This document shows positions 10,152-13,134 of a DNA stretch of 34,266 nucleotides, in pieces. Below the pieces are notes generated by a model. The model was not told the origin of the DNA. It did no database searches and saw only the letters and a list, made by a program, of their open reading frames with translations. Source of the DNA: Gemmatimonadaceae bacterium (lineage in GTDB: Bacteria; Gemmatimonadota; Gemmatimonadetes; Gemmatimonadales; Gemmatimonadaceae); NCBI GenBank assembly GCA_025453875.1, contig JALOPN010000014.1:1-34266 (forward strand), given 5' to 3'. The translations under genes were made by a program, and so were the position numbers. Each line of letters begins with the position of its first letter. Within the stretch, counting starts at the first letter, position 1.

Positions 10152-10337
10152 GGCAGACGGGCGCTGGGGGGAGGTGAGGACGCGAGCGGTGCGGCAGGCA
10201 CCCGAGCGCTCGCGAAACACATGCAGCGTTAGTGGCGCGACCCGCTGCAATGGTTGCACGGGTCAGAAATGAACGCTCGTCACAGTACGCGGCAAGCGCG
10301 CGAGGGTTCCTACAGTCGAGCTCGCTTGGATTCCATT

Positions 10338-10367
10338 GCGCACGGCGCACACTTTTTGCACACCGTG
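10338..10367 (+). promoter_or_regulatory. Candidate operator, copy 1 of a shared GCRCAC-repeat element
   Basis: GCGCACGGCGCACACTTTTTGCACACCGTG matches the reverse complement of 12206-12235 at 24 of 30 positions, with the same spacing of GCRCAC units (7 and 13 nt). Confidence 0.55.
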
Positions 10368-10442
10368 CACACCAGTTCTGACGCGACCGCGGCGACGTTA
10401 CGGACGTGATGTGCACGCTTGCGACACGCGCCACTCGTCCCC

Positions 10443-10856
10443 ATGGTTGAGCATCTCGGCCCACCCGATGCCGTCCACGATGCCGTGCAGTTCGAAGTGT
10501 GGCTCGCCGAGCGCGAGCTGCTGTCGGCGGCCATGCAGTTGCGGGACCTGATCGGGCAATCGCCATCGCGCGCGCGGCTCGACGAGGCTCGCATCGGGTA
10601 TCAGGCCGCGTGGCTGCGGTTCATGGTGTCGCTGTGCAACCTGCCGCTGCCCGATCGACCGCCTGCGGTCGAACATGCGCTCGATGCCCTTCGCGCCGCA
10701 CACGCGCTGCGGTCGGATGGCATCCTCCCGGGACGCGATGCCGCGCCCCAGTCATCGTCGCCTGCCGAGGATTCCCGCCATGGACCGACGCGCCCCGCTC
10801 CCGAAGGCCACGAGCCACCCGCTGATCACCCTCCCGCTCCCCCCGAACATGCGTGA
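10443..10856 (+). CDS. Hypothetical protein (orphan)
   Basis: MVEHLGPPDAVHDAVQFEVWLAERELLSAAMQLRDLIGQSPSRARLDEARIGYQAAWLRFMVSLCNLPLPDRPPAVEHALDALRAAHALRSDG followed by a Pro-rich tail. Stop overlaps the start of the TPR gene. Alternative start at 10419. Confidence 0.55.
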   Translation: MVEHLGPPDAVHDAVQFEVWLAERELLSAAMQLRDLIGQSPSRARLDEARIGYQAAWLRFMVSLCNLPLPDRPPAVEHALDALRAAHALRSDGILPGRDAAPQSSSPAEDSRHGPTRPAPEGHEPPADHPPAPPEHA

Positions 10857-12006
10857 ACCGTTGCTGCCGATCGACGCCTACACCGTGGACATTGGCGACG
10901 AAAACCGCTGGCAGGGGCACCCGACACAGCCGCACGGGTGGTTCTCGGTCACGCACATCGCGTATCGGATGGTGATGTTGCCCCCGGAGCGTCGCGCGTG
11001 GTTCCTGGAGACGCTGCCGCTCGATGTGTTGCCGCAGGGTCCGCGTCGCCCCACGCACATCGATCACGAGGCGCCGGCGCCGACGCACCCCATGGCGATC
11101 GCCGCCGAACAGCTGCGCGTGATTGCGGAGGACATGGAACGCGACGGCTGCTTCGAGATGGCGTTCACGACGGTATCGTCGGCCGCGCGGCTGGTGAGCT
11201 TGCACGACGCCGGGGCAGCGCTTTCGGCGACCAACCACCTCGCGCGTATCACGCGTCAGCTGGGCGAGACGGCCGCCGCGGAGGAGATCTACACGTCGGT
11301 GGTGGAGGAGGCGAAGCGGCTGGGGCTGCGGTCGGTGGCGGGGTATCGTCCGGCGCAGAAATTCTACTACGAAGAAGCGCTGGACCTCGCCCCCGCAGGC
11401 TCAGCGCTGGAAGGCACCGCACGCTGGGGCCTGATGAACCATGCATTGGCGGTGCACTCGCTTCCGGATGCGCTCTTGCACGGCTGGCGCGCGTACGATC
11501 TGCTCGAGGGCGACGAGATGCGGGCCGGTATTCTCTCGAACCTCGCGTCCGTCGCCCACCGCGGCGGGTTTCTGGAAGCAGCCGTCGGCGGCTATCTCGG
11601 TGCCTTGCAGCTCGCTGAACCACCGCGCCTGTGGCTGAGCATCGCCGCGTCCGCTGGCGAGGCACTGGGAGACGCTCGACGCATCGATCGGCTGACCATG
11701 CTGGAGGCCGAGGGGCGGCCTCGTGCCTCGGCCGCCGGGCCATTCGAAGTGGCGCAGTGGCTGCTCGGCTTGGCTCGCGGCTGGCAGGCAGCTGGCGCGA
11801 TGGATGCTGCCTCCCGCTTCGCAACGGAGAGTCGCCATCTGGCGCAGCAACACGAGTTTCACGAAGTTGTCTATCGGGCAGACGCGCTCTTGAACGAGAC
11901 GGCGGCTGCGCCAGCCACCCGACAGGAGACGGCGGGATCCGCAGAAGCAGATCTGCCGTTCTCCGTTCGGGGCGGGCTGTTGCGTCTGGTCGAGCTCGGC
12001 GCGTGA
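10849..12006 (+). CDS. Tetratricopeptide-repeat-like protein
   Basis: From ATG 10849: MREPLLPIDAYTVDIGDENRWQGHPTQPHGWFSVTHIAYRMV... Helical repeats such as MAFTTVSSAARLVSLHDAGAALSATNHLARITRQLGETAAAEEIYTSVVEEAKRLG and MRAGILSNLASVAHRGGFLEAAVGGYLGALQLA look TPR-like. Confidence 0.7.
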   Translation: MREPLLPIDAYTVDIGDENRWQGHPTQPHGWFSVTHIAYRMVMLPPERRAWFLETLPLDVLPQGPRRPTHIDHEAPAPTHPMAIAAEQLRVIAEDMERDGCFEMAFTTVSSAARLVSLHDAGAALSATNHLARITRQLGETAAAEEIYTSVVEEAKRLGLRSVAGYRPAQKFYYEEALDLAPAGSALEGTARWGLMNHALAVHSLPDALLHGWRAYDLLEGDEMRAGILSNLASVAHRGGFLEAAVGGYLGALQLAEPPRLWLSIAASAGEALGDARRIDRLTMLEAEGRPRASAAGPFEVAQWLLGLARGWQAAGAMDAASRFATESRHLAQQHEFHEVVYRADALLNETAAAPATRQETAGSAEADLPFSVRGGLLRLVELGA

Positions 12007-12018
12007 GCGCCGTGTCGG

Positions 12019-12144
12019 TCAGGTCCAGGGCATCGTATCAGCCGACTTCGTCGGCTCGTCGACGCCGGTCGGCGAACCCGTGCAAGCGGCGAGCGCGAAG
12101 GAGCTGATCAGGGCGACGGCGAGAACTCGAATCGTACGCGACAT
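12019..12144 (-). CDS. 41-aa small lipoprotein
   Basis: ATG at 12144: MSRTIRVLAVALISSFALAACTGSPTGVDEPTKSADTMPWT*. Signal peptide plus LAAC lipobox leaves a ~21-residue mature peptide. Confidence 0.6.
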   Translation of the reverse strand: MSRTIRVLAVALISSFALAACTGSPTGVDEPTKSADTMPWT

Positions 12145-12205
12145 GGAGGGACTCCGGTTGAGGGTTGAGCAAGAGGATAGGCCCTTCCCAACGCCTCCGG
12201 GTGTC

Positions 12206-12235
12206 CGCCGTGTGCAACCGGTGTGCGCCGTGTGC
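12206..12235 (-). promoter_or_regulatory. Candidate operator, copy 2 of the shared GCRCAC-repeat element
   Basis: Minus strand GCACACGGCGCACACCGGTTGCACACGGCG. Plus strand shows CCGTGTGCAAC twice (12208-12218 and 12228-12238), 20 nt apart. Lies in the divergent region between the lipoprotein and HTH genes. Confidence 0.55.
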
Positions 12236-12252
12236 AACGAGTTTTCCCCGCC

Positions 12253-13134
12253 GTGCTGACCACCCGGCGGGTTTCGCTGCTCTTCGGCGATCGACTCGCC
12301 CACGCCCGCCTGCTCGAAGCGGTCCGCGGACACGCCGCGCTCTGGACCAGTGAGGACCCCGACGAAGTCGCGGACGCCGTGGCGACCTCTCACGACGAGG
12401 TCGCCACCGTCATTCTGTTTTCCCCGTCTCGGCATGCGGAAGGCATTCGCGCCGCCGAGATCATCCGCGCCGTCGCCCCCGACCACGCCATCGTCGGCTA
12501 CGTCGATCCGCGTACCATCAGTTCGCGCTTCATCCTCGAGACCGGCCGCGTCGCGCTCACCGACCTCGTCCTCCGCGACGTCGATGACTCGCGCGCCATT
12601 CTCTTGCGCGTCATTCAGAACGCCGCCCAGCGCGACCGCGCCCTGCGCATCGCACACGAGCTCTGCGACGGCCAACCGCGCGAAGTGCGCCTCGTCGTCC
12701 AGTTCATCTGCCGCCACCTCCGCGACACGCTCGACGCCACCAGCATCGCCGCCGGACTCGGACTGAATCGGCGCACGCTCTACCATCGGCTGGCGCAGGT
12801 CGGCAGCCCCGGACCGCGGGAACTCGTGGGGTGGTGTCGCGTCGCGTACGTCTGCTGGCAGCTCAGCCACGCCTCCGCCACCCTCGCCGACATCGCCACC
12901 CAGCTCGATGTGCCGGTCTGGCGAGGGCTCGCGTCGCTGCTGCGACGCTATCTCAACATGACCACCCGCGAGCTTCGCGAGAGCGACGCCTTCGCCATCG
13001 CGATCGATCGCTTTCGGGCCCAGTTCGTCGCCCCGATCAGCGACGACGCGACCCCACGCCCGATGCCCATGATCGGGACACCATTGCCACCGCGACCACC
13101 GATCGCCTTGCTCACGCCCGGCCCGCTCGGTTAG
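12253..13134 (+). CDS. AraC-type helix-turn-helix transcriptional regulator
   Basis: C-terminal [85 protein letters not shown] has two HTH-like helices. N-terminal half resembles a receiver-like fold. GTG at 12253 preferred over ATG at 12223, which sits inside the repeat element. Confidence 0.8.
   Translation: MLTTRRVSLLFGDRLAHARLLEAVRGHAALWTSEDPDEVADAVATSHDEVATVILFSPSRHAEGIRAAEIIRAVAPDHAIVGYVDPRTISSRFILETGRVALTDLVLRDVDDSRAILLRVIQNAAQRDRALRIAHELCDGQPREVRLVVQFICRHLRDTLDATSIAAGLGLNRRTLYHRLAQVGSPGPRELVGWCRVAYVCWQLSHASATLADIATQLDVPVWRGLASLLRRYLNMTTRELRESDAFAIAIDRFRAQFVAPISDDATPRPMPMIGTPLPPRPPIALLTPGPLG

Follow-up and report, generated by a model that had tools for sequence, protein, structure and literature searches.

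Paired direct-repeat operators and a putative peptide-signalling module in the Gemmatimonadaceae

Our analysis of a 34,266-nucleotide stretch of DNA from a Gemmatimonadaceae bacterium (hereafter the window) revealed two similar operator elements, one upstream of an operon encoding a TPR protein and the other between a small lipoprotein gene and the gene of an AraC-type regulator (Table 1). We consider it rather probable, though far from settled, that these parts form an autoregulated peptide-signalling module made up of paired operators, a Rap-like TPR receptor, a lipoprotein propeptide and a receiver-AraC regulator. The operator pair and the module are well supported by what was observed, namely the pair itself with its conservation and exclusivity, the gene trio, the lipobox-bearing precursor with its variable repeated motif, and the predicted folds, whereas secretion, binding and signalling are inferred.

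If the proposal is true, intracellular TPR-receptor peptide quorum sensing would reach outer-membrane-bearing bacteria as well, and the Gemmatimonadaceae, an abundant soil lineage that is poorly understood, would offer a peptide of six to seven residues as a signal open to testing and the operator pair as a reporter ready for use. A literature search, restricted to open-licence papers, found no description of such a system in Gemmatimonadota, and a literature search on AraC half-sites returned nothing specific.

Table 1. Positions and strands of the module's features in the window.
Feature	Position	Strand	Remarks
Operator A	10336..10372	+	Upstream of ORF1-TPR; kept upstream of ORF1 in G001, G002 and G004
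Operator A half-sites	10336-10352 TTGCGCACGGCGCACAC; 10356-10372 TTGCACACCGTGCACAC	+	20 bp period
Putative -10 element GACGTT	10394..10399	+	21 nt past operator A; inferred by eye
ORF1	10443..10856	+	137 aa; genus-specific; opens the TPR operon; no Pfam match
TPR protein	10849..12006	+	Start MREPL, from orthologue comparison; putative peptide receptor without HTH
Small lipoprotein, putative propeptide	12019..12144	-	MSRTIRVLAVALISSFALAACTGSPTGVDEPTKSADTMPWT; 41 aa; lipobox LAAC; C-terminal motif DTMPWT
Putative -10 element TATCCT, lipoprotein gene	12174..12179	-	21 nt past operator B; inferred by eye
Operator B	12201..12237	-	Upstream of the lipoprotein gene, just before the regulator gene
Operator B half-sites	12237-12221 TTGCACACGGCGCACAC; 12217-12201 TTGCACACGGCGGACAC	-	
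AraC-type regulator	12253..13134	+	Receiver-like N-terminal domain and HTH_18

The operator pair and its conservation

The first-pass annotation had aligned positions 10338-10367 of the plus strand with 12206-12235 of the minus strand and counted 24 matches over 30 positions, a count that proved exact. The similarity extends further: 30 positions agree over a length of 37, and about 31 over 40. The full element is 37 bp long and consists of a direct repeat of two 17 bp half-sites (TTGCRCACSGYGSACAC) with a period of 20 bp. When the upstream region was dinucleotide-shuffled 1,000 times, the maximum match was 27 for a 37-mer and 24 for a 30-mer, against 30 and 25 observed. Scanning the genome to which the window belongs (2.96 Mb) with a degenerate 37 bp pattern at three or fewer mismatches gave two matches, operators A and B only, and the reversed control pattern gave none in the same scan. 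This genome is an incomplete MAG (64% complete), and most of the relatives are also MAGs.

All four module-bearing members of the genus contain the double half-site at both promoters with the exact 20 bp period, and within each of the four genomes the two-site pattern is nearly exclusive. Among 60 relatives, the 37 bp pattern had matches in two sister species alone, at the orthologous promoters and nowhere else. The third, G001, which has the most drifted regulator, carries its own operator variant (TTGCCCGTGG..CACAC) at both promoters; the copies follow the variant of their own species. One further sister species of the same genus, G003, is without the module.

Both elements are of low complexity and rich in CAC, which would be in keeping with a chance resemblance or a mobile repeat. 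However, they are retained at both promoters in species whose regulators are 53-67% identical, they are absent elsewhere in the genome, and the shuffles stayed below the observed 37 bp match. A chance match or genomic repeat can hardly be entertained on these grounds and was rejected by conservation and exclusivity. Two of the three outcomes that would have refuted the annotation, a motif occurring at random throughout the genome and a lack of conservation in orthologous loci, were checked and neither was met, since the genome scans found no scattering and the motif is kept at both promoters in three sister species. We therefore judged the earlier regulatory reading, of one operator acting at this locus, to be supported, without binding data and with self-control of the regulator left open.

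In the aligned sequences, a hexamer resembling a -10 element could be seen by eye at a fixed 21 nt after the second half-site at both promoters. The ORF1 hexamers of the three sister species are CAGATT, GATGTT and CATAGT, all of the form xAnnnT, and those of the lipoprotein gene, at the same spacing, are TACTTG in G002 and G004 and TATCTG in G001 (all likewise assigned by eye). With this spacing the downstream half-site falls against the -35 position, as is expected for activation by an AraC-type protein.

Two gene assignments of the first-pass annotation were kept with revised boundaries. The second copy does stand before the AraC-type regulator, but 12253 is a better start for this gene than 12223, which places the copy 15-51 nt upstream. 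The tiny lipoprotein beginning at 12144 on the minus strand was refined to a coding sequence ending at 12019. The conserved orientation and spacing of operator B point at the lipoprotein promoter, an inference from sequence alone, and control of the regulator itself remains open.

In genus g23, the same two promoters possess a diverged cognate operator, TTKCCCAY N12 TTKCCCAY, and the closed genomes G026 and G095 of that genus contain exactly two perfect copies each, at those promoters. Across 48 peptide promoters, the best direct-repeat match was 9.15 out of 14 at a period of 20, with 5.5-6.9 out of 14 at the other periods from 12 to 33. Paired elements are visible in G012 too. The second operator, before the TPR gene, is clear only in genera g1, g23 and g9; in the NP and CxSGY groups (named after their precursor tails, below) no paired operator was detected before the TPR gene at the whole-element level, and the repeat is found only at the peptide promoter. 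As far as can be judged without binding experiments, the operator architecture is kept while its sequence changes between genera.

Extra perfect or near-perfect g23 sites (G103:C450, G112:C249 and G095) were considered as further regulon members and rejected, as they have no consistent downstream gene. Operator-like g23 sites outside the module were also seen in L142 (about position 1415), L143 (about 3182) and L141 (about 3307), and the genes downstream of them share no common theme.

The lipoprotein, the TPR protein and the regulator

Precursor length is 41 aa in the window and ranges roughly from 41 to 102 aa across the family. A hydrophobic, Sec-like N-terminal stretch and a lipobox were present in 48 of the 48 picked precursors. 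This count is biased, because the picker favoured ORFs with a lipobox; the fair count is that of a strict lipoprotein filter with controls, which recovered a minus-strand precursor within the gap at 40 of 47 loci versus 0-2 of 47 in five control regions. The lipobox implies signal peptidase II (SPII). In 45 of the 47 loci, the precursor stop lies 11-126 nt from the end of the TPR domain, and the distances of the other two stem from split HMM hits. No lipoprotein was found in the gap of the g16 loci G019a and G182, and none was recovered by the filter in G034b and some further G145b copies.

The C-terminal motif of the precursor is short, varies between lineages and often occurs in two to four tandem copies. 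By tail class, 25 of the 48 precursors are PW, 11 are NP and 12 are SGY, SGW or SGF; repeated 5-mers were found in 14. NP tails contain, for example, four copies of DFVNPNA (G015) or DYVNPLG (G009) and three of DFVNPHV (G029), and the NP unit is present four times in G181 and G180 and twice in G032 and G178. The copy number of a nearly identical unit varies from two to four within genus g29. Repeats of PW tails include APTLPW (four copies, G007), RPTIPW (three, G131), GGSQPWY (three, G034) and EVVPWF (two, G012). Outside the Gemmatimonadaceae, G345 has three copies of HNPDSGN. Precursors from different species of the window's genus share 80-88% identity (dN/dS about 0.06-0.24); the linker before DTxPW varies by indels and the end of the precursor is constant.

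We give about even chances to the wider proposal that these tails, in the classes PW, NP, CxSGY, CDxxNxNxC and HNPDSGN, belong to a widespread, lineage-diversified peptide-pheromone system of Gemmatimonadota, a phylum of Gram-negative type, in which a Rap-like TPR receptor and a separate receiver-AraC regulator would respond to the lipoprotein-borne peptide, with autoinduction of its gene via paired operators of 20 bp period. The lineage-variable motifs that contain Cys could be something other than linear pheromones. The Cys classes (CRSGY..GRC and CDxxNxNxCH) and the variable repeated cores resemble the diversity of core peptides, as would be expected if the product of the small gene matured into a secreted peptide, antimicrobial or modified (RiPP or bacteriocin), with a dedicated regulator and a TPR protein serving in immunity or regulation. 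We find this improbable: no maturation enzyme or exporter was seen to recur beside the trio in a partial examination of the flanks, the leader is a lipoprotein signal peptide, and the motifs are very short.

The TPR protein has 385 aa counted from position 10849, inside the 250-500 aa range of RRNPP receptors, and TPR_12 was matched in 11 of 13 family members. The AlphaFold model of an orthologue (L137) is all-helical, with TPR-like helix pairs (pLDDT 87.5). Foldseek matches of this model in the PDB included Rap of phage Phi3T with its pheromone (8rtc, E 8.8e-5), RapH-Spo0F (3q15) and RapF-ComA (3ulq). However, the top structural matches were eukaryotic LGN and designed TPRs, with Rap 32nd and below, so the likeness to Rap is compatible with the proposal and not specific. 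No homology to a known RRNPP receptor (Rap, Rgg, NprR, PlcR, PrgX or AimR) was found: Pfam returned generic TPR only, NCBIfam unrelated TPR models only, and a PDB profile search designed and eukaryotic TPRs.

The TPR protein of the window lacks about 14 residues near VAGY^RPAQ, within a TPR, which are present in three sister species (ALAGLGNLAMMRGN in G002). This gap is either a true deletion or an assembly fault.

HTH_18 was matched in the window regulator at E=1e-7, with 32.5-32.6 bits against a curated cut-off of 33.6 bits, and in 10 of 10 regulator homologues at E≤0.01 (best, 3e-15). The AlphaFold model of the regulator (pLDDT 83.9) has an alpha/beta N-domain with five strands, a helix between the domains and the AraC helices, and Foldseek matched the N-domain to StyR, FixJ and the CheY-like TadZ, indicating a receiver-like fold. 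The alignment, read by eye, shows no conserved phospho-acceptor Asp: at the end of strand 3 the window has VILFSPSR, and relatives have D, E or other residues. The regulator and the TPR protein are 51-69% identical between species of the genus. The direct repeats beside the regulator gene co-vary with it, an observation made without binding data.

Another member of the regulator's family, about 25% identical, is encoded at G000:C202:9323-10018, about 6 kb from a gene for an oligopeptide-binding protein (G000:C202:2523-3553). The same pairing was found in G002:C9 and G026:C1.

Synteny and spread of the module

The sister species share one gene order: Rho, regulator, lipoprotein, TPR protein, ORF1 and membrane-fusion protein (MFP) with an RND pump. 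In one of the three, Rho lies past the contig end. The window has a tRNA-Arg between the regulator and Rho.

An MFP gene and two RND genes stand immediately upstream in the window and in sister species, and the module might be an accessory regulator of these neighbouring efflux genes. However, MFP homologues flank the module in the window's genus only, being absent from the fetched flanks of other genera, and the MFP promoter showed no operator. We regard this explanation as very improbable; an efflux-linked role is largely refuted by the family-wide neighbourhoods, where the fetched flanks contain MFP in the window's genus alone.

Across the Gemmatimonadaceae, the genes recur in one order: a TPR protein, then a small lipoprotein encoded on the other strand, then an AraC-type regulator. 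A TPR profile search matched 67 of 179 Gemmatimonadaceae genomes at E≤1e-15, with about 56 strong orthologues. Wherever the contig extends far enough, the fetched orthologues have the regulator gene after the TPR gene and on its strand, except at G019b, a weaker second copy for which no regulator was found. A class-wide search gave weaker TPR matches (E 1e-20 to 1e-33) in families f2, f5, f7, f8 and f10. From these five families 20 loci were fetched, and the complete ordered trio, with a lipoprotein-like small ORF, was present in 8 of 8 f2, 3 of 3 f7 and 3 of 7 f8 loci. The regulator or the small ORF was not in reach at the remaining f8 loci, the f10 locus had no regulator, and the f5 locus had it on the other side. 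By these gene predictions, the trio is conserved through the Gemmatimonadaceae and, more distantly, class-wide.

The module adjoins rho in genera g1, g9, g23 and g13, but is not next to it in the flanks fetched for the NP group. A 6.7 kb contig (L103, G145:C221) contains three TPR copies, two regulators and one CLGGY..C precursor, an arrangement that is a local duplication of the module. In family f8 (G392, G354, G210 and relatives), there are up to four TPR homologues per large genome, and small lipoproteins ending in GSGG were seen at some of the loci examined.

Proposed mechanism and comparison with known systems

We propose that the adjacent AraC-type regulator binds both operators with their tandem half-sites, which would form a local autoregulatory circuit in which operator A drives the ORF1-TPR operon and operator B the divergent small lipoprotein gene. 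The lipoprotein would be exported through Sec, and its C-terminal motif (DTMPWT in the window, one to four tandem copies elsewhere) would be freed by proteolysis. An oligopeptide permease may then bring the freed peptide back into the cell, where it would bind to the TPR protein of the cytoplasm; this protein would control the receiver-AraC regulator as Rap controls ComA, by relief or support of its activity. Finally, the regulator would activate the peptide and receptor genes via the two operators, giving a positive loop. Operator binding, export, maturation, import, both contacts of the TPR protein and activation are each inferred.

The operator evidence fits equally well with plain autoregulation without cell-cell signalling, in which the regulator would control an envelope lipoprotein and a TPR scaffold jointly at the membrane, with the motif as a docking tag. 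The precursors do carry a lipobox, and binding of C-terminal tags by TPR domains is known from many proteins. However, no export signal is evident in the TPR protein, while the tail would lie outside the cytoplasm. Furthermore, a motif that is repeated identically two to four times in tandem and replaced from lineage to lineage is what propeptides typically show, and a docking tag would need neither. We regard plain autoregulation as unlikely, although it is not to be dismissed.

The peptide-signalling module that we prefer resembles Rap-Phr systems of Bacillota (RRNPPA; RapF-PhrF-ComA and Rap(Phi3T)) in its HTH-less TPR protein of about 400 aa, in the adjacent small exported precursor (export being inferred here) with a short C-terminal motif in one to four tandem copies, in the partner regulator with a receiver or receiver-like domain, and in the weak structural similarity of the TPR model to Rap. 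The Phr propeptides of Bacillus have one to four repeats (PMC11343458). In contrast to Rap-Phr, the module occurs in another phylum, one with an outer membrane; its precursor is a lipoprotein (SPII) whose gene is convergent with the receptor gene, its TPR protein has no sequence-family match to RRNPP receptors, and its regulator, of AraC type, is encoded within the locus itself. The usual site in RRNPP propeptides is that of SPI, whereas the precursor here has a lipobox.

RRNPP quorum sensing by TPR receptors and peptides has been described from Bacillota and framed on Firmicutes, and the RRNPP_detector survey covered Firmicutes and viruses only and required SPI-type signals (PMC10075063). The module is similar to the signature used there, with a precursor of 10-100 aa, a Sec-like N-terminus, a TPR protein of 250-500 aa and adjacent genes, and it satisfies four of the five published criteria (PMC10075063); the lipobox leaves the export criterion ambiguous. 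Since there is no homology to a named RRNPP family and RRNPP receptors are described from Bacillota, we describe the module as working like an RRNPP system and do not file it as a member.

AraC/XylS activators bind direct-repeat half-sites about 20-21 bp apart near -35. With them the module shares HTH_18 and two direct-repeat half-sites, their binding being inferred, about two helical turns apart beside the promoter, but the N-domain of its regulator is receiver-like and not a cupin sugar-binding domain. Enterococcal sex pheromones are derived from lipoproteins, with the pheromone lying within the signal sequence. The module is similar in that its signal peptide would come from a small lipoprotein gene, and differs in placing the variable motif at the extreme C-terminus.

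Genes for oligopeptide-binding proteins occur in each of the eight genomes checked; this is weak support because oligopeptide permeases are widespread. In G034, the gene for an oligopeptide-binding protein (G034:C1:1597064-1598137) was found about 2 kb downstream of the TPR/peptide/regulator module, a position that would suit peptide re-import.
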